IMG/VR virus record: IMGVR_UViG_3300025137_000350
Coordinates: 1 to 21,777 of that record
Reading direction: 5' to 3' (one strand)
DNA length: 21,777 nucleotides
Source of the DNA: a virus
Each line of letters begins with the position of its first letter. The stretch's first letter is position 1. Positions 1,359-17,298 of the stretch are shown here, piece by piece. The notes under the pieces were generated by a model that worked only from the letters and a program-made list of their open reading frames with translations, did not search any database and was not told the origin of the DNA. The position numbers were made by a program, and so were the translations under genes.

Positions 1359-1393
1359 TATTATATAATAGAAAAAAGGTAAATTTATTTGAT
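1359..1393 (-). promoter_or_regulatory. Candidate phage late promoter, copy 5 (upstream of the 160-aa gene)
   Basis: Read on the minus strand, ATCAAA (1393-1388) is followed after 17 bases by TATTAT (1370-1365), inside the core TCTATTATATAATA (1372-1359). The same two boxes at the same spacing occur ahead of four other late genes. Eighteen bases separate TATTAT from the ATG at 1346, and a strong terminator ends directly upstream, which fits a promoter restarting transcription. Confidence 0.55.
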
Positions 1394-1423
1394 AAAAAAA
1401 AAGACTACCGAAGTAGTCCCTTT
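1394..1423 (-). terminator. Intrinsic terminator with UUCG tetraloop
   Basis: On the minus strand GACTAC (1418-1413), TTCG (1412-1409) and GTAGTC (1408-1403) form a perfect 6-bp stem closed by a stable UUCG loop. The stem can extend by two G-U and three A-U pairs, and nine Ts (1402-1394) follow. It lies after the 188-aa gene and before the promoter-like element of the 160-aa gene. This is a textbook rho-independent terminator for the capsid transcript. Confidence 0.9.
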
Positions 1424-2994: not shown

Positions 2995-3618
2995 TTATTT
3001 AGTTATGTTATATAATATTCTTTCTCTTTTAGTCATTTTAGATATATCTCTTTGTGAGATTTCTTTACCTAAAGAACTAAATTTGTTTGTATCTACAGGT
3101 TTAGCAGCAGGTTCGTTTGATAACTCTACTACTTGTGCAGATAGTTTTTCTTTTTCTGAAGATAAATCTTCATTTGTTGATTTAAGTTCTGCTAATTCAG
3201 CTTTTAAAGTTTCTATGTCTGTATTTACATTACTCATTAGATCAACTACAACAGACTTAACTTCATCCATAAAAGCTACTGAATCAAATTCAACTTCTTC
3301 CATATCTTCTTTAGATGCTTCTTCTTCTACTGGAGTTTCTTCAGCTTCTTCTTCTTCAGCTTCTTCTTCCATAATTTCAGCAACTACACCCTCAACCTCT
3401 ACAGAAAAACTTTGACCATCTTCAGTTTTGTATTCTCCAATAGGTAAAAGCATTGTAGTTCCATCTTCTGTAAGAACAGAAATATCTACTCCTGCTTCTA
3501 ATGTTTCAGCAGTTGATACTATAATAGTACCATCTTCAAGTTTCGCTTGATACTCTAAATTCACTTCTTCTTGCTTATCAAGACCAAGTGCTACTAATAT
3601 TTGTTGTTTTAAATCCAT
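2995..3618 (-). CDS. Capsid scaffolding protein (acidic, coiled coil)
   Basis: The 207-aa product is very acidic. Residues about 82-112 are almost all Glu, Ala and Val (MEEEAEEEEAEETPVEEEAS). They are followed by a helix and a coiled-coil stretch (about 125-168: IETLKAELAELKSTNEDLSS and EKEKLSAQVVEL). The C-terminus is basic (MTKRERILYNITK), as in scaffolds whose tail contacts the coat protein. Scaffolds assemble inside the procapsid and are removed by the prohead protease, which is the preceding gene; the coat protein is the next one. A promoter-like element at 3633-3666 lies upstream, so this gene and the coat gene may have their own start site. The identity rests on position and composition, not on a catalytic signature. 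Confidence 0.75.
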   Translation of the reverse strand: MDLKQQILVALGLDKQEEVNLEYQAKLEDGTIIVSTAETLEAGVDISVLTEDGTTMLLPIGEYKTEDGQSFSVEVEGVVAEIMEEEAEEEEAEETPVEEEASKEDMEEVEFDSVAFMDEVKSVVVDLMSNVNTDIETLKAELAELKSTNEDLSSEKEKLSAQVVELSNEPAAKPVDTNKFSSLGKEISQRDISKMTKRERILYNITK

Positions 3619-3632
3619 TGTGATGTCTTTTT

Positions 3633-3666
3633 TTTATATAATAGAATAAATTATTATTTGTTTGAT
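3633..3666 (-). promoter_or_regulatory. Candidate phage late promoter, copy 4 (upstream of scaffold and capsid)
   Basis: On the minus strand ATCAAA (3666-3661) is followed after exactly 17 bases by TATTAT (3643-3638), within TCTATTATATAAA (3645-3633). Nineteen bases then lead to the scaffold ATG at 3618. This copy would give the scaffold and coat genes a dedicated transcript. Confidence 0.55.
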
Positions 3667-3675
3667 TTTTAAAGT

Positions 3676-4626
3676 TTATAATTTAGGTAAGTCAGGAATA
3701 CTTTGAACTTTCTTTCTGTTTTCTTCAGCTTGTGAAACTGCAACTTTGAATTTTTTAATAACAGGAACTTTATTTGCATCTATTCCTAAATCTTTTAATT
3801 GTTTTTCTATTCTAGTTATATTTGCCTTTCCCTGTTTAACTCCTTTCATACTTTCTTGTGAGTTTGCTTTTATTGAATTTATTTTTTTTCTTATACTAGA
3901 AAATTCTGTAGTAATTGTTTTTAATTGCTTTTCAATTATAGAATCTTGTTTTTGTAAAAACTTTAAACCATCTGTTAAGTCATCGATAACACCTAATTCA
4001 ACTTTTTCAGCTTTTAGTTCTGTCTTTTCTTTTATTAGTTCGCTTAATGCTTCTAATATATCTTCGTTTGAAAATTGTTGTTTACCCATTTTTTCCATTT
4101 TATTAATAAAGTAGCCCTCTATACTTAGACCTTTTAGTTCTCCATCTTTTATTTTACTCCACATCTCATCATTCTCTATCTTCATCTTTACAAACCAAGT
4201 ACCATCAGGTAAGTCAAAGCCATATAACTTAGATTTGTCCATATCCCCCTCTTTTATCCAACTCTCTATAGTTAATACACCTGATACATTTTCTTCATGT
4301 TGATATGTAGCTTTATGATGATTGTTGTGCTTTAAATACAACTCACTAGCTTGTCTTACTGTTTCTTTTGAGAAATATACATAGTAATCTGAATCAGTAT
4401 TAGGATCGTATCTAAATATATTTTTGTTTGGTATTAAAGCAGGACTAACTAACATTCTTTTCTCCTCATCTATCTTGGCTAAAGTCAAGTTGTTCTTTTC
4501 TTTTCCAAAAAACACAAAGTCTTGCTCTATAGCAGGACTTGTAACTAAACTAATAGCATCTATAGTCATTTCTTGACTTTCATCTGATATAACTAACTCT
4601 ACAATCTTAGTTGGTTTCTTTTTCAT
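3676..4626 (-). CDS. Prohead maturation protease, XkdF-like, with coiled-coil extension
   Basis: The first ~165 residues of this 316-aa protein match the XkdF-like phage serine protease domain. Visible pieces are VSPALIPNKNIFRYDP (about 60-75), KATYQHEENVSG with a conserved His (about 104-115), ESWI (about 121-124), and GTWFVKMKIENDEMWSKI followed by GELKGLSIEGYF (about 142-173), the Ser-bearing end. Such proteases cleave scaffold and coat N-termini during head maturation. Residues about 180-316 form a long charged helical, probably coiled-coil region with many Lys, Glu and Gln. This may be a fused scaffold-like segment that tethers the protease inside the prohead. The order protease, scaffold, coat supports the call. 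The ATG at 4624-4626 directly abuts the promoter-like core. Confidence 0.8.
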   Translation of the reverse strand: MKKKPTKIVELVISDESQEMTIDAISLVTSPAIEQDFVFFGKEKNNLTLAKIDEEKRMLVSPALIPNKNIFRYDPNTDSDYYVYFSKETVRQASELYLKHNNHHKATYQHEENVSGVLTIESWIKEGDMDKSKLYGFDLPDGTWFVKMKIENDEMWSKIKDGELKGLSIEGYFINKMEKMGKQQFSNEDILEALSELIKEKTELKAEKVELGVIDDLTDGLKFLQKQDSIIEKQLKTITTEFSSIRKKINSIKANSQESMKGVKQGKANITRIEKQLKDLGIDANKVPVIKKFKVAVSQAEENRKKVQSIPDLPKL

Positions 4627-4660
4627 AATATATAATAGATTATTTATTAATTTATTTGAT
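4627..4660 (-). promoter_or_regulatory. Candidate phage late promoter, copy 3 (upstream of prohead protease)
   Basis: On the minus strand ATCAAA (4660-4655), 17 bases, then TATTAT (4637-4632) inside TCTATTATATATT, which runs straight into the ATG at 4626. The 16 bases TCTATTATATATTATG are identical to those ahead of the chaperone gene. Only five bases lie between the -10-like box and the start codon, so a transcript from here would be leaderless or nearly so. Confidence 0.5.
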
Positions 4661-4664
4661 TTTT

Positions 4665-12621: not shown

Positions 12622-12863
12622 CTTTGAACTGTTTTTATTTCATTTAAATCTACTTCGTAACTTAACCAAGTTAAACATTCGTATAAACTTAACTTTGTTA
12701 TCCTTTCTAAATTTACTATCTCTCCATTTGTCAATCTATACATTATACCGAACCAACTCCACTTTTTTGCAAATTGTTCATCTGTAGAGATTCTATCACT
12801 TTTTTCGTTTGTTCCATTAAATACAATGGCAAAATCGTTGATAGTTTGTTGCCTAAAGTCCAA
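12618..12863 (-). CDS. Tail assembly chaperone, -1 frameshift extension (gpT-like part)
   Basis: This 81-codon frame has no ATG. Its first usable codon is TTG (12861-12863), inside a run of nine Ts, and a TAG in the same frame lies only a few codons upstream. It overlaps the 214-aa reading frame by 121 bases. A -1 slip on the T run after codon 175 joins the two into a 256-aa protein, as in the gpG/gpGT tail-assembly chaperones of siphoviruses. The extension contains KKWSWFGIMYRLTNGEIVNL (about 29-48) and LSLYECLTWLSYEVDLNEI, an alpha-helical pattern similar to the downstream parts in other Bacteroidota phages. In the lambda system the fused form binds the tape measure. It ends with an ATGA overlap with the next gene. 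Confidence 0.75.
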   Translation of the reverse strand: MDFRQQTINDFAIVFNGTNEKSDRISTDEQFAKKWSWFGIMYRLTNGEIVNLERITKLSLYECLTWLSYEVDLNEIKTVQR

Positions 12864-13387
12864 AAAAAAACCAACGCACTATTAACATCATTTGCTTTCA
12901 TCTTCTTAAATTTCTCTGCTCTAACCCTTACACCACTACCATCATAAGATGTAATAGTATAAAATTTATTTTTCTTTTCTACAATCGGTCTGTAAAGAAC
13001 TGCCATAATATTTGGCAAGTTTTTCTCTACTCCGTTTTGTATGTATGTTTCTAAGTCTGCATATTCTCCTAAACTAATATCTGATAAACTAGGATGAAAC
13101 CCATACTCAACACCATCTACTTTAATAATTTTTCTTAAGGTACTATTTGCTTTAGATTGTAACTCAGCTATCTTACTTAAAATAACTGATACATCACTAA
13201 TTTTTAACTCCTTAATAAGTTTAGCAGGTATATCAGATAAAACACTTATTGTATCTAATGCTTCTTTTGTTTTAGATTTGGTTTGACTATTAATTAGTTT
13301 AGACCATTTCTCAAGTGTTACATCTTCCCAACTATTAATAAGATTGTAGTTTTTTTCCTTACCATCTTTTTTAATTTTTACCTGCAT
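12743..13387 (-). CDS. Tail assembly chaperone (gpG-like), unshifted form
   Basis: The 214-aa protein (13387 to 12743) is helical: a basic start, then EDVTLEKWSKLINSQTKSKT (about 21-40), two helices to about 80, and a conserved-looking VDGVEYGFHPSLSDISLGEY (about 90-109) followed by ADLETYIQNG and NIMAVLYRP. It ends in KFKKMKANDVNSALVFFW at the slip site (codons V173-F174-F175-W176), then 38 more residues in the zero frame. Such chaperones coat the tape measure during tail assembly and are made in excess over the frameshifted form. The gene starts a transcription unit: an upstream hairpin and a promoter-like element sit in the 106-base gap after terL. Being four genes upstream of the tape measure is less usual. 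Confidence 0.72.
   Translation of the reverse strand: MQVKIKKDGKEKNYNLINSWEDVTLEKWSKLINSQTKSKTKEALDTISVLSDIPAKLIKELKISDVSVILSKIAELQSKANSTLRKIIKVDGVEYGFHPSLSDISLGEYADLETYIQNGVEKNLPNIMAVLYRPIVEKKNKFYTITSYDGSGVRVRAEKFKKMKANDVNSALVFFWTLGNKLSTILPLYLMEQTKKVIESLQMNNLQKSGVGSV
12860..12871 (-). promoter_or_regulatory. Programmed -1 ribosomal frameshift site (T9 run)
   Basis: On the minus strand the zero frame reads GTT TTT TTT TGG (12871-12860), containing the heptamer T TTT TTT. A -1 slip with tRNAs on TTT TTT makes the next codon TTG (12863-12861) and opens the 81-codon overlapping frame. That frame cannot be entered by an ATG. The downstream stimulatory structure, if any, was not identified by eye. 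Confidence 0.75.
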
Positions 13388-13421
13388 AATATATAATAGA
13401 AATTTGGTTAATATAGTTTAA
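13388..13421 (-). promoter_or_regulatory. Candidate phage late promoter, copy 2 (upstream of the chaperone gene)
   Basis: The minus strand has TATTAT (13398-13393) in TCTATTATATATT, ending directly at the ATG at 13387. The upstream box at the same distance is only TTAAAC (13421-13416), so the -35-like half is weak here. The 16 bases up to and including the ATG are identical to copy 3. Confidence 0.45.
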
Positions 13422-13460
13422 TATCGTAATATTGCATCGTTTTCATAGCTTTAATTAGTT

Positions 13461-13493: not shown

Positions 13494-14705
13494 TTATTGC
13501 ACATAGTATTTACCTAAGTTTGGATTGTCTAAATGATATATAACGTTATAACGGATTCCATCTATGGCATGATTGTAATTATCTACATATAACTTAGAAC
13601 CTTTGTCTGCATATACATAATTGTTTAACTCTTTAGCTATGTTAGTAGATTCAGCCGTAACAACTAATTGATAGTCTTGCATACGAGTTATACCACTTTC
13701 TATAGTTCCTTTCTTAACTGGTCTTATATTAACTCCTAAGTGCCTTAAATCTTCTATTAGTCTTGGTTCTGCACTATCAGCTATTATTAATTTGTTTTCT
13801 ACCTTATCCAATATAATCTTAGCTAACTCATGAGATTTTAAACCATTTCTGTAAATGTGTTCCTTAATGTATATTTTCATCTTACTTTTATCTATAGCTA
13901 TTTCTGTAAGACTATCAGGATCAATAGAAAATCCAAAGTCCATACCACAAGAAGTTTGTAAACCATCAGGATTAAATTCTCCTATTGTCCAGTTATCAAA
14001 TACTACACCCTCTGCTTTATCTAACCAACCACCAAGAATTTTATGTAAATATTTTTTAGGATTGTTTTCTTTAAGTGTATATATTCTTTGTAAGAAACTA
14101 TCTGATAGGTTCTGCTTGTTATCTAAGTAAGTAGAATGAATGTAACAGACATTATCTTTAATGCCATTAAAACCTGCTTGTATACCTTTATCTTCAAAGA
14201 ATCGTTTATATATCCAATGCTCTTTAGTTGTAGGATTAAGTATTAATATAATTCTATTCTGTATATTCTTTTCCCTTATACTTAAATCAATAGTATCAAA
14301 TATATTCTCATCAACAAGTTCTTCTGCTTCATCTAATATCCAATTTGAAACATTAGTTAAAGATTTTAAATTACCAGTCTGATTACCTGATGAAGTTTTA
14401 ATACCTCTAAATAGTATATCACTTTTAGTTGATTCATTTACTACTTCTGATTTATTAATACTAAATATAGAATTATAACCTAATAAACCAATCTTTTCTA
14501 AAAATTCAGGTATAATAGATAGATGTGCAGATACCATAGTATATCTTGTAAACAAAACCCTTATACCTTGTGCCATTGTAAGCAAAGTAAGAAACACAGT
14601 TACTGCGTAAGATTTACCTGAACCTCTCCCTCCTGTAATTATATAGTATCTACAATTAGAAGAAAATAGTACACTATACTTTTTATTCAGTTTCGGATTC
14701 AACAA
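13494..14705 (-). CDS. terL: Terminase large subunit (packaging ATPase-nuclease), TTG start
   Basis: The 403-aa protein drives DNA packaging and cuts the concatemer. ATPase motifs are visible: Walker A GGRGSGKS (25-32), Walker B WILDEAEE (122-129) and the coupling motif LNPT (156-159). Nuclease-domain acidic residues are D256 (CGMDFGFSIDP), D310 (IIADSAEP) and D382 (HAIDGIRY). It resembles the PBSX/phage terminase type common in Bacteroidota phages. No ATG is available: the first Met after the start is residue 44, past Walker A, and a stop lies just upstream in frame. The likely start is one of two TTG codons (14700-14705) inside the end of terS. The gene overlaps terS by 23 bases. Confidence 0.93.
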   Translation of the reverse strand: MLNPKLNKKYSVLFSSNCRYYIITGGRGSGKSYAVTVFLTLLTMAQGIRVLFTRYTMVSAHLSIIPEFLEKIGLLGYNSIFSINKSEVVNESTKSDILFRGIKTSSGNQTGNLKSLTNVSNWILDEAEELVDENIFDTIDLSIREKNIQNRIILILNPTTKEHWIYKRFFEDKGIQAGFNGIKDNVCYIHSTYLDNKQNLSDSFLQRIYTLKENNPKKYLHKILGGWLDKAEGVVFDNWTIGEFNPDGLQTSCGMDFGFSIDPDSLTEIAIDKSKMKIYIKEHIYRNGLKSHELAKIILDKVENKLIIADSAEPRLIEDLRHLGVNIRPVKKGTIESGITRMQDYQLVVTAESTNIAKELNNYVYADKGSKLYVDNYNHAIDGIRYNVIYHLDNPNLGKYYVQ

Positions 14706-14952
14706 AGTTTATTATAGGTATGTTTAGTGTTTCGCTATTACTCGTTACATCAACTCTCTGTTGTGGCTTACCGTAAAAATATTCAAAGAATAATTTAACT
14801 GCCCATTGTTCTTTATTTTTTAAACCTATCTCTAAAGACTTTAAAGCATCAGGATTCATAGGAGTTAGATTTTCTATTAGCTTTTGTTCTTCTGCTTTGC
14901 CTTTACGCCCTGCACCCTCTCTTTTACCTCCGTTGTTTATTCGTTTATCCAT
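14683..14952 (-). CDS. terS: Terminase small subunit
   Basis: The 89-aa protein (from the ATG at 14950-14952) starts MDKRINNGGKREGAGRKGKA, the Gly/Arg-rich GGKREGAGRK block typical of small terminase subunits. It continues with a helix (NPDALKSLEIGLKNKEQWAV) and LFFEYFYGKPQQRVDVTS, another family hallmark. The small subunit recognises the viral DNA and loads the large subunit. An upstream TTG (14976) would extend it by eight residues (NNQSFSI), but the ATG puts the family pattern at the start, so I prefer it. It lies directly before terL, overlapping it, and after the promoter-like element at 14978-15014. Confidence 0.85.
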   Translation of the reverse strand: MDKRINNGGKREGAGRKGKAEEQKLIENLTPMNPDALKSLEIGLKNKEQWAVKLFFEYFYGKPQQRVDVTSNSETLNIPIINFVESETE

Positions 14953-14977
14953 AATTGAAAAAGATTGATTATTCAAA

Positions 14978-15014
14978 TCTATTATATAATAGAAATTAGT
15001 TGTATTCGTTTGGT
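14978..15014 (-). promoter_or_regulatory. Candidate phage late promoter, copy 1 (upstream of terS)
   Basis: On the minus strand ACCAAA (15014-15009) and, after 17 bases, TATTAT (14991-14986) match the boxes of the other copies. The core TCTATTATATAATAGA (14993-14978) is a perfect 16-base palindrome here. The upstream box lies inside the end of the ninB gene. It would launch terS-terL and the genes behind them. Confidence 0.55.
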
Positions 15015-15379
15015 AGCATTAATCTTATTCCTAACTCTGTCATAGCCCATATTCTTATTTGTTCTGCATAGACTTCAAATGCTTTAGTGTTTAGTGTTGC
15101 CGTACTTCCTATCTTGTTTATACCTACTTTCTTATCGTTTATCTCTAACATCTCCCATTCATTAAGAAACTTTGCCCTAAGTATATCATGCATTTCTTGT
15201 GGAAAATAGCCAAGTGAATTTCCTAATTCTTGCACAATACATTTCCAATAATAATTGTTTTGCATATTTGATCTATTATTTCTTTGTTTCTTTACATCAA
15301 CTATATAATCGTTTCCTAACTCCTTTAAATAGTTTATTAAACTTTGCTTGTCTTTATCATCCTTTATTACAAATTTCAT
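14996..15379 (-). CDS. ninB: NinB-like recombination protein
   Basis: The 127-aa protein resembles lambda NinB (Orf), a recombination mediator that binds SSB and single-stranded DNA. Visible family features are the KKQRNNRSNMQNNYYWKCIV segment (about 30-49), the ELGNSLGYFPQEMHDILRAK helix (about 51-70) and the WAMTELGIRLMLPNEYN C-terminus. It is in the same block as a NinG homologue and an SSB-like protein, as in lambda's recombination genes. It overlaps the preceding zinc-ribbon gene as TAATG. Its own end carries the upstream box of the terS promoter-like element. Confidence 0.7.
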   Translation of the reverse strand: MKFVIKDDKDKQSLINYLKELGNDYIVDVKKQRNNRSNMQNNYYWKCIVQELGNSLGYFPQEMHDILRAKFLNEWEMLEINDKKVGINKIGSTATLNTKAFEVYAEQIRIWAMTELGIRLMLPNEYN

Positions 15380-15612
15380 TAACTGGTAAATTTAGACTTA
15401 GTATCTTTCCACATTCTATCTTTGCTTTTGCTTAACGATGGTTCTGTTCTTTTAATACTAGGAAACCCTCCAAACTTATAAATCTCTTGCATATACTCTC
15501 CACATTCAGGACATTCAGTTCCTACATTAACTACTTTGCCATCTATCACTTTCATTACTACTCTACTTAATTCTTTTTGTATCTCACATTTGTTACATTG
15601 ATATTTTAACAT
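15379..15612 (-). CDS. Small zinc-ribbon protein (77 aa)
   Basis: The 77-aa product carries two CxxC knuckles, C6-C9 (QCNKCE) and C34-C37 (TECPECGE), spaced as in FmdB-like zinc ribbons; the rest is basic and probably disordered (PSLSKSKDRMWKDTKSK). It probably binds zinc and perhaps nucleic acid, but no function is assigned. Its ATG overlaps the stop of a 55-aa ORF (TATGTTAA) and its stop overlaps the ninB start. Confidence 0.7.
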   Translation of the reverse strand: MLKYQCNKCEIQKELSRVVMKVIDGKVVNVGTECPECGEYMQEIYKFGGFPSIKRTEPSLSKSKDRMWKDTKSKFTS

Positions 15613-15773: not shown

Positions 15774-15990
15774 TGTCTTTATTTAGTTTTAATTCTTCTA
15801 ACTCAAATTGTAAATGGTGTATTGCTTTTTCTATACATTCTTCAGGTCTGTTATGCTTAAAGTTTGCTCTTAATAAATATGTAACTGCATTTCCTATATT
15901 CCAACTAAGTTCCCAATCAGAGATAACTTTTCTAGCTTCATACTTATAATTTTTTCCTATGTAATAATTAGGTATTTTTTTATCTGCCAT
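15757..15990 (-). CDS. DUF3310 family protein
   Basis: The 77-aa product (ATG at 15988-15990) has the DUF3310 layout: a short PNYYIGKNYKYEARKVISDW strand-helix, then the conserved LSWNIGNAVTYLLRANFKH (roughly 27-45) and a helix ECIEKAIHHLQFELEEL. In many phages this small domain is part of, or sits near, nucleotide-metabolism genes, but its function is unknown. The frame opens a few codons earlier at a TTG (15999), but the ATG is preferred. It overlaps the upstream zinc-binding gene by 11 bases. Confidence 0.75.
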   Translation of the reverse strand: MADKKIPNYYIGKNYKYEARKVISDWELSWNIGNAVTYLLRANFKHNRPEECIEKAIHHLQFELEELKLNKDNAEKK

Positions 15991-16381
15991 ATTTCTCAAC
16001 TATTTGTCTTATTCCATGATAGCAATTATTTAAACAAGTTCCACAATTACTTGTAGGTTTATAATTTGTACCATGTATTGTATTATACAATTCAATCATT
16101 TTCTTTTTTACTGTTACGTTCTTTGCTACTCCTGTCTTTACATCATCCCAAATTAATAAACATTCTTCTATTAATTCTTCAGGTATGTGATCAGGTCTTT
16201 CTACTTCTGTTGTCTTACCCCAATATTTCTTTGGACACTCCATTACGGAAATTCTTGACTTGATTTTCATAAAACAACCACAAATTTTGCAATTTCCTGT
16301 AGGTTTAAAGTAATATACACATTCTCTGCATAATGCTATACGTTCTTGATACACCTCATCTTTGACAAAGAAATTACTCAT
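15980..16381 (-). CDS. Protein with two Cys-rich putative zinc-binding clusters (133 aa)
   Basis: The 133-aa product has a Cys cluster at C18, C21, C31, C34, C36 and C49 (RIALCRECVYYF, GNCKICGCFMK, MECPKKYW) and a second at C113, C116 and C120 (SNCGTCLNNCYHG), with an acidic helical linker between them. Both look like metal-binding knuckles, so a nucleic-acid or protein-binding role is plausible, but nothing catalytic is visible. It overlaps the sigma-like gene by eight bases and the DUF3310 gene by 11, so all three are translated together. Confidence 0.65.
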   Translation of the reverse strand: MSNFFVKDEVYQERIALCRECVYYFKPTGNCKICGCFMKIKSRISVMECPKKYWGKTTEVERPDHIPEELIEECLLIWDDVKTGVAKNVTVKKKMIELYNTIHGTNYKPTSNCGTCLNNCYHGIRQIVEKYGR

Positions 16382-16928
16382 CTAATAATTCTTCTTTTAA
16401 TATATTTCTTACTTTATCTATTGTAGTAAATAAACTATTCCTACTTATACCAGTTTTTTTTGCTAAAGAATCTAATGTATTTGATTCTCCATAATATAAC
16501 TCGAAAATCTTTTTATCATACCAACACAACTTATTTAATTCTTTTTCTATAAGTTCTATCTTATCATTTTGGTAAGTATCTACTTTTACATTTGGTAAGT
16601 TATAAATACTTTTATGAAAGTTATTTTTTGCAAATGAATAATTAGCAGTAGGTGTAACTAAGTTTCTGTAGTATTTTTTATACTTATAATAAAAAGGACT
16701 TCTTACAGATGTGTAACTTCTTTTTAAAACTACTGCACCATATTTTATAATACCATCCCTACCATCTTTTTCCCAAATACTTTTTAATTGATCAGGATTC
16801 ATAGAAAGAAAATAAAGCATTAACTCTTGTACTGCATTTTTTATTTCTGTTTCATTTTGTACAAGACCATAAGACATTTCTATAAACTTATCAGTTAGCT
16901 TTGATATTTCTATATAAATTTTATTCAT
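16374..16928 (-). CDS. Sigma-70-like transcription factor (phage sigma factor candidate)
   Basis: The 184-aa protein has a C-terminal helix-turn-helix like sigma-70 region 4: KLCWYDKKIFELYYGE (about 133-148), then TLDSLAKKTGISRNSLFTTI (about 151-170) and DKVRNILKEEL. The N-terminal half (TEIKNAVQELMLYFLSMNPD, about 27-46, then a basic aromatic KYKKYYRNL stretch near 82-90) could be a diverged region 2 that binds the -10 DNA, though the match is weak. Small sigma-like proteins are known in Bacteroidota prophages. It is the last regulator-like gene before the late genes, where five copies of a non-host promoter-like element occur, so it is the best candidate to read them. Whether it is a true sigma factor or a late activator of the ArpU/RinA type is open. 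Confidence 0.55.
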   Translation of the reverse strand: MNKIYIEISKLTDKFIEMSYGLVQNETEIKNAVQELMLYFLSMNPDQLKSIWEKDGRDGIIKYGAVVLKRSYTSVRSPFYYKYKKYYRNLVTPTANYSFAKNNFHKSIYNLPNVKVDTYQNDKIELIEKELNKLCWYDKKIFELYYGESNTLDSLAKKTGISRNSLFTTIDKVRNILKEELLDE

Positions 16929-17277
16929 TTACAAATTCTAATTCTGATAAATCTGTAACTAAATCCTCTAAATATTTATCTAATAAAACTTTGTATACTC
17001 TTATTGATTTTGCATTTCGTTTTGTTTCTAGTCCTGCAAAATACCCATTAGTCATAACTGATAAATTAATTGGTAGAATCATTAACCAATCATTCCAGTT
17101 ACCTATACCTACACTTTTACCATAACCATTATGATATTCAATAATTATATTAAATACCTCTTTAAAATTTTCAAACTTAGATTTTGTAGAACATTCTTTA
17201 ACAGATGATAACATTAAATTCATATACTCCGAAACTAAAATTTGATGTTTTGTACTAGAAAAAATTGGTTTTTCCAT
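16921..17277 (-). CDS. Protein of unknown function (118 aa)
   Basis: From the ATG at 17275-17277 the product is 118 aa; a TTG two codons earlier is less likely. It is helical with mixed charge. Visible parts are HQILVSEYMNLMLSSVKECS (roughly 11-30), FEVFNIIIEYHNGYGKSVGIG-like residues near 40-58 with the motif GIGNWNDWLMILPINL, and an acidic end SELEFVNE. No family is recognised. It lies between ninG and the sigma-like gene and overlaps the latter by eight bases. Confidence 0.6.
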   Translation of the reverse strand: MEKPIFSSTKHQILVSEYMNLMLSSVKECSTKSKFENFKEVFNIIIEYHNGYGKSVGIGNWNDWLMILPINLSVMTNGYFAGLETKRNAKSIRVYKVLLDKYLEDLVTDLSELEFVNE

Positions 17278-17298
17278 TATCAAATATAAATAAATTAA

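Follow-up and report, generated by a model that had tools for sequence, protein, structure and literature searches.

Phage regulators of late transcription

Phage late sigma factors are already known. The gp55 protein of T4 is a phage-encoded late sigma factor, and the late promoters of T4 are A/T-rich and resemble -10 elements. In SPO1 (Herelleviridae), gp28 and gp33/gp34 are sigma factors that redirect the host core polymerase in a cascade. The RinA, ArpU and Q-like late regulators are encoded ahead of the terminase and harbor a region-4-like helix-turn-helix (HTH). For phages of the Bacteroidota, no mechanism of late transcription was found in the literature, most subscription journals being outside the search. 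What is new here is a proposed cis/trans pair in uncultured marine phages.

The pair consists of a 184-residue protein and a repeated late promoter-like element, both encoded by a 21,777-nucleotide stretch of viral DNA (IMG/VR record IMGVR_UViG_3300025137_000350, positions 1 to 21,777), hereafter called the window. The protein shares its size, regions 2 and 4, and its fold with the ECF sigma factors, such as E. coli sigmaE, S. coelicolor SigR, M. tuberculosis SigL and SigH, and the GFO_1088/PG0214 type of the Bacteroidota. Like these it is without region 3, and its profile matches are weak. Unlike these, it is phage-borne, has no recognised anti-sigma partner and scores under the curated cut-offs, and the late element is unlike the classical ECF promoters (GGAAC / CGTC or TCTGA).

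The phage systems differ in other respects. T4 gp55 has no classical region 4 and the T4 late promoters have no -35 sequence, whereas the window system has both; the window protein, with its region 4 domain, is hence not of the gp55 type, which is defined by the lack of one together with action through gp33 and the sliding clamp. SPO1 belongs to the unrelated phages of Bacillota and uses a two-step cascade with a split late factor, and the likeness is that of a phage sigma factor redirecting the core polymerase. Compared with RinA, ArpU and the Q-like regulators, the window protein has an additional region-2-like domain and is associated with a non-host -10 element. It does not conform to the RinA/ArpU type, an HTH alone acting at host-type promoters, as it has this domain and the late elements lack the sequence TAnnTTTG.

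The sigma-like gene, its neighbors and its family

The gene for the predicted ECF-like phage sigma factor (16374..16928, minus strand) was identified as an open reading frame with an ATG start and by profile, model and fold matches. It is taken to be a real gene because it has many relatives in IMG/VR, 237 in a first scan and at least 577 loci in a profile scan, and because both the N-terminal and the C-terminal halves of the family contain invariant residues. Many of the relatives are found on contigs of 27-31 kb, on which almost every gene lies on the same strand (1488 versus 32). A tblastn search of the protein against 50,697 deposited phage records gave no match, and in GTDB genomes the sole match is a 29-kb phage-like contig in a metagenome-assembled genome (MAG). 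This contig (PBGL02000003.1, 29,000 bases) is titled as a Euryarchaeota archaeon MAG, in which it is probably mis-binned. The phage group that carries the protein is very common, uncultured and marine, and its hosts are probably Bacteroidota. This assignment rests on the relatives, on the TAnnTTTG boxes described below and on the absence of Shine-Dalgarno sequences from the upstream regions seen, there being no host link for the contig.

Directly upstream of the sigma gene, and overlapping it by 8 nt, is the first gene of the sigma operon, g16921 (16921..17283, minus strand; likely start ATG at 17277), which encodes a 120-residue protein of no known family, for which an anti-sigma or co-factor role is possible. 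Both the sigma gene and a homolog of g16921 are present in 19/19 near-complete relatives. Adjoining the sigma gene are also two small CxxC-rich, zinc-ribbon-like proteins (g15980, 15980-16381, and g15379, 15379-15612, both on the minus strand), one of which matches DUF6171. These two are likewise kept in all 19, as are g19973, g18642 and NinG. Apart from the sigma factor, the only DNA-binding HTH among the genes conserved to this extent is that of g19973, which is DnaA-C-like.

Fold and sequence signatures

In the full-length AlphaFold model of the protein, two domains are predicted with confidence, and a loose linker (residues 87-115) connects them. With this model as the Foldseek query, all 50 matches shown are sigma factors or their complexes, ECF factors first, at a modest best E-value of 1.9e-3. 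As one domain can carry two-domain alignments, residues 1-98 were modelled separately, giving a model with pLDDT 88 and pTM 0.76. In VIA-align the eight top places for this model go to structures of sigma region 2 (Z 8.6 to 5.6), followed by an unrelated protein at Z 4.9. SigR (1h3l) aligns over 70 residues at 2.2 A (Z 8.4), and region 2 of E. coli sigmaE on -10 DNA (4lup) gives Z 6.8. Foldseek on the N-terminal domain alone returned no E-value below 1, and the support for region 2, though good, thus falls short of certainty. On the basis of the separate model and the VIA-align matches, the region-2-like domain is placed at residues 1-86 (16671..16928, minus strand), with 'xAVQE' at residues 32-35, and its roles in core binding and -10 reading are inferred.

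The earlier note had described a 184-residue protein with a region-4-like HTH, and this description is borne out. Residues 151-170 of the protein read TLDSLAKKTGISRNSLFTTI, and the region-4-like domain, at residues 119-182 (16383..16574, minus strand), aligns in VIA-align with region 4 of E. coli sigmaE on -35 DNA (2h27) over 67 residues at 1.9 A (Z 10.4). Reading of the -35 sequence by this domain is again an inference. A prediction with no region 2 or 4 would, according to the same note, have refuted a sigma-like protein; the models contain region-2-like and region-4-like domains, and the best solved matches are sigma factors, mostly of the ECF group.

The sequence profiles point the same way at lower strength. 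The sigma70-ECF profile TIGR02937 is matched by 46/46 family members (E 4e-10 for the best of the 46), but every match falls below the curated cut-off, the best score being 36.3 bits against a cut-off of 42.9 bits, and for this reason we use the term ECF-like rather than classify the protein as an ECF member. In the window protein the match is mostly via region 4, while almost the whole profile is matched in G007, G082 and G083, with positions 9-165 and an E-value of 6e-11 in one relative. Sigma70_r4 or r4_2 is found in 25-26 of the 46 members, the window protein scoring below the gathering threshold, and Pfam Sigma70_r2 is matched only weakly, in 9 of 34 members (best E 0.0014). A PDB sequence search with the family profile gave no significant sigma match. 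Within region 2.2, whose D-x-x-Q-E residues we take to be a core-binding signature, V33 and Q34 are invariant in 34 members and position 31 is D, N or E; E35 is replaced by M in the divergent L298-L301 group. Models and profiles together thus predict an ECF-like sigma factor that is compact and has two domains. The protein is very probably a phage sigma factor, with core RNA polymerase binding and promoter-specific initiation both inferred.

The late promoter-like element

In relatives, the consensus of the late element is [TC]AAA(Y)(W)AAW-N10/11-TCTATTATATA, often followed by nTATG. There are five copies in the window, all on the minus strand. The first downstream of the sigma gene is the predicted promoter before the terminase small-subunit gene (14980..15015), some 1.4 kb past the end of the sigma gene with four small genes between, and its exact -10 core is kept in relatives. 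The second (13387..13422) lies at the ATG of the first gene after the terminase (12743-13387), where the spacing is fixed in relatives, and the third (4626..4661) at the ATG of gene 3676-4626, which matches head maturation protease families. The remaining two predicted promoters precede gene 2995-3618 (3632..3667), which the putative capsid gene 2073-2984 follows, and gene 864-1346 (1359..1394).

Within the window the -10-like word alone is not significant, with 42 near-matches against 29 expected, whereas the two-part pattern is, with 2 exact matches against 0 expected. In the window and 80 relatives taken together, the coding strand holds 91 exact copies of the 11-mer TCTATTATATA and the other strand 6, against 0-3 expected under a first-order Markov model. 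The exact pattern is present in 26/30 near-complete records when these are selected through the sigma gene, and in 22/24 when the capsid protein is used for selection; all of its matches in these records are on one strand, and the reversed pattern is found 0 times. The late promoter-like element of the earlier note is therefore real, being present in five window copies and, in relatives, strand-biased and above Markov expectation.

The internal geometry of the element is equally conserved. At the gene after the terminase, every relative in which the element was found (96/96) has AAACnAA and the core 19 nt apart, and this spacing is kept although the protein behind it drops to 34% identity. The terminase cassette itself (13494-14976) is variable, with no homolog of the window TerS/TerL detected in 11/19 near-complete relatives; replaced cassettes are seen in G004, G005, G014, G002, G019, G038, G051 and G082, among others. 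In the relatives inspected, the late element is kept in front of the replacement cassette.

The ATG usually lies 13-15 nt from the start of the core (13 nt in 119/318 late cores and 15 nt in 60/318), and this proximity, together with the preference of Bacteroidota for A-rich leaders without a Shine-Dalgarno sequence (PMC6847099), might suggest that the repeat is no promoter but a translation-initiation or RNA-level signal in an A/T-rich leader. We regard this as extremely unlikely. At the terminase small-subunit gene and at 2995-3618 the element stands 26-43 nt before the ATG with its internal spacing unchanged, its -35-like part lies much too far out to belong to a ribosome site, and genes inside the late clusters are without the element.

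The host-type box and inferred transcription starts

The sigma operon itself is preceded by a different signal. In Bacteroidota, the primary sigma factor has TAnnTTTG as its -7 box (PMC6847099, PMC9723704), and a host-type -7 box, TATATTTG, is found at 17281..17288 on the minus strand, 3 nt before the ATG of g16921. TAnnTTTG occurs in 122/144 distinct regions upstream of g16921 orthologs, compared with a background of 26/858 for all gene starts and 1/185 for the upstream regions of late-element genes. The gap from box to ATG is exactly 4 nt in 100/147 upstream regions of g16921 orthologs. In F. johnsoniae the last base of the -7 box lies at -5 (PMC6847099), and this, combined with the 4-nt gap, places the inferred start of the sigma-operon transcript on the A of the ATG. 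For the late transcripts, the distance between core and ATG, and a purine at position +13 of the core in 93% of copies, suggest that they are leaderless or nearly so, their start sites being deduced from sequence. In F. psychrophilum, leaderless messages account for only 5.5% of mapped mRNAs (PMC9723704).

The contrast between the two promoter types bears on whether the protein might be a late activator of the RinA, ArpU or Q-like kind, which would use its HTH to bind DNA upstream of the late element and so recruit host polymerase carrying a host sigma factor. Its location is where RinA and ArpU genes sit, just ahead of the terminase, and the HTH half has the clearest sequence matches, including a weak one to phrog_36 'transcriptional regulator' (E 7.8e-6); a weak match to phrog_79 'anti-termination protein Q-like' is also seen in 19/46 members. 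Such an activator is nonetheless unlikely. The N-terminal half models as sigma region 2, the -10 part of the element is as conserved as its -35 part, the host box is almost absent from late-element genes, and the spacing is rigid and at promoter distance. It is the region-2-like domain and the non-host -10 sequence that make a region-4-only activator the less likely reading, and the protein is better regarded as a two-domain sigma factor.

Co-occurrence of element and gene

The occurrence of the motif in relatives that lack the gene would, as the earlier note recognised, have refuted the pairing, which survives this comparison. All capsid-chosen records of at least 25 kb (14/14) carry the sigma gene. 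Seven capsid-chosen records without it are fragments of 19.8-23.8 kb that appear, judged by the positions of their promoters, to end before the sigma locus. Among the relatives, none was found that has the element and reaches the sigma locus but is without the sigma gene. Among 2.9 million contigs scanned, three long records (29.6, 77 and 176 kb) match the motif but carry no sigma gene; such long records with a single motif match look like chance matches, although only the 29.6-kb one was checked.

That record, G033, was rejected as a counter-example since it has no homolog of any window protein. G096, considered as a relative without either motif or gene, was also rejected: its motif is present as the variant TACATTATATA, and the contig stops within the terminase gene and so does not reach the sigma locus.

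Coordinated change of the -10 sequence

The -10 part of the element varies between lineages. G005 has TCTATTTAATA-like sequences, G096 the variant just mentioned, and G021 has TCTCTTATAT at three of its five promoters, while the promoters of L303/G082 and of L302 carry CTTTATAT. In the sigma proteins of L302 and L303, NKNTYYYKYRRYY replaces the usual PRSPFYYKYKKYY just after the third long helix. In G100/G102, G025 and G004 the -10 sequences are mixed rather than uniform.

Promoters of one genome carry -10 variants that are alike. With sites extracted automatically, restricted to those with C at position 2, and genomes shuffled within each gene class, the mean mismatch was 0.71 compared with 1.45 in the permuted sets, and 0/10,000 permutations were as low. 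Without the C-at-position-2 filter the effect is smaller (2.40 versus 2.81, p 0.0004). Sigma distances and promoter distances show only a small partial correlation (r 0.13, p 0.0085), and tests of the Mantel type are lenient when the sequences are related. Assignments of residues to bases would be premature with so few independent variant lineages. As the -10 sequence differs together at several promoters within a lineage, a trans-acting reader is favored.

A parallel case in the Nonlabens phages P12024S and P12024L

The closest terminase to that of the window belongs to the Nonlabens (Persicivirga) phages P12024S and P12024L (63%), of the genus Inhavirus. At the same place ahead of the terminase, these phages encode P12024S gp33 and P12024L gp35, annotated as Sigma-70 region 2, and Pfam Sigma70_r2 is matched by 7/7 members of the gp33 family. 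They thus resemble the window in having an ECF-like sigma factor ahead of the terminase and a repeated element before structural genes. Their late element, AAAACAAA-N11..14-CGTTAATA, is found at gp05, gp08, gp35, gp41, gp44 and gp45, and with a weaker -35 at gp01, always at the ATG, and TATATTTG-N4-ATG stands before gp29, at the start of the gene run that contains gp33. The reverse strand of NC_018271.1 has two further matches to this element, which may drive the minus-strand genes at 32-35 kb.

The sigma factors of the two groups are only weakly detectable as similar (hhalign probability 54 over 49 columns, with no tblastn match to the window protein), and the -10 sequence is CGTTAATA in P12024S/L as against TCTATTATATA in the window clade. 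Comparison of sigma factor and element with those of the window therefore reveals two related phage groups that share a layout in which reader and -10 both differ. No promoter for the gp33 system has been reported in the searchable literature, which excludes most subscription journals. The cultured Bacteroidota phages P12002L, Harreka_1, 11b and RAP44 have no TIGR02937 match, and neither type of repeated late element was found in the part of each record examined. Among other terminases, that of 'Shigella phage Henu10' (OQ791282.1) is of the Riemerella phage type, sharing 44.3% identity with the window as those of Riemerella phages do, and its host label may be wrong.

The Nonlabens phages also help to judge whether the element could be read by another phage protein or by a host ECF sigma factor, leaving the sigma-like protein with some other target. 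Conservation alone cannot exclude this, as g19973 with its DnaA-like HTH, g18642, NinG and the CxxC-rich g15980 and g15379 are retained in the same 19/19 relatives, and flavobacterial hosts themselves encode several ECF sigma factors (PMC9723704). We nevertheless consider it very unlikely: P12024S possesses a sigma-like gene and an element of its own, yet no homolog of g19973, g18642, g15980 or g15379 was detected there, and a host ECF factor would leave the lineage-specific, coordinated -10 changes in the phage genomes unexplained.

The 184-residue protein itself very probably reads the late element, a view supported by position, conservation, coordinated change and the parallel case. The pairing, proposed in the earlier note as an inference, has gained support that is strong though indirect, at its best in the coordinated -10 change within genomes and in the different P12024S/L pair; with no experiment and no biochemical link between the two partners, it remains an inference.

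A proposed early/late switch

Computationally, the two domains, the element and its conservation, the host-type box, the coordinated change and the co-occurrence are all observed. They make it highly likely, in the absence of expression or biochemical data, that the 184-residue ECF-type two-domain sigma factor is a phage late-gene switch that reads the late element. In such a switch, the operon g16921-sigma-15980-15757 would be transcribed by the host primary holoenzyme from the TAnnTTTG promoter at the first ATG. The phage sigma factor would then bind the host core RNA polymerase, with [TC]AAA(Y)(W)AAW recognised by region 4 and TCTATTATATA by region 2, and the resulting holoenzyme would initiate at promoters before the terminase, neck, head and tail genes. 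At many late genes, transcription would start on the start codon or no more than a few nucleotides from it. Core binding, promoter recognition, timing and transcription start are inferred.

A broader proposal is that marine Bacteroidota phages use co-diverging pairs of sigma factor and late promoter as their late switch, with at least two very different pairs, in the window clade and in Inhavirus, and several variants within the window clade, and that the transcripts of the switch, both early and late, are leaderless. Flavobacteria examined to date have few such mRNAs, and we consider the evidence for and against this proposal to be evenly balanced.

A complete early/late switch, comprising the protein, a promoter class and a host-type starter promoter, is thus proposed for very abundant uncultured marine phages. 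The lineages with differing -10 sequences represent a natural experiment on the joint change of a sigma factor and its promoters, and small, possibly orthogonal sigma/promoter pairs for use in Bacteroidota could come from these phages. As P12024S and the marine isolate on which it grows are both in culture, the idea of the switch is directly testable.
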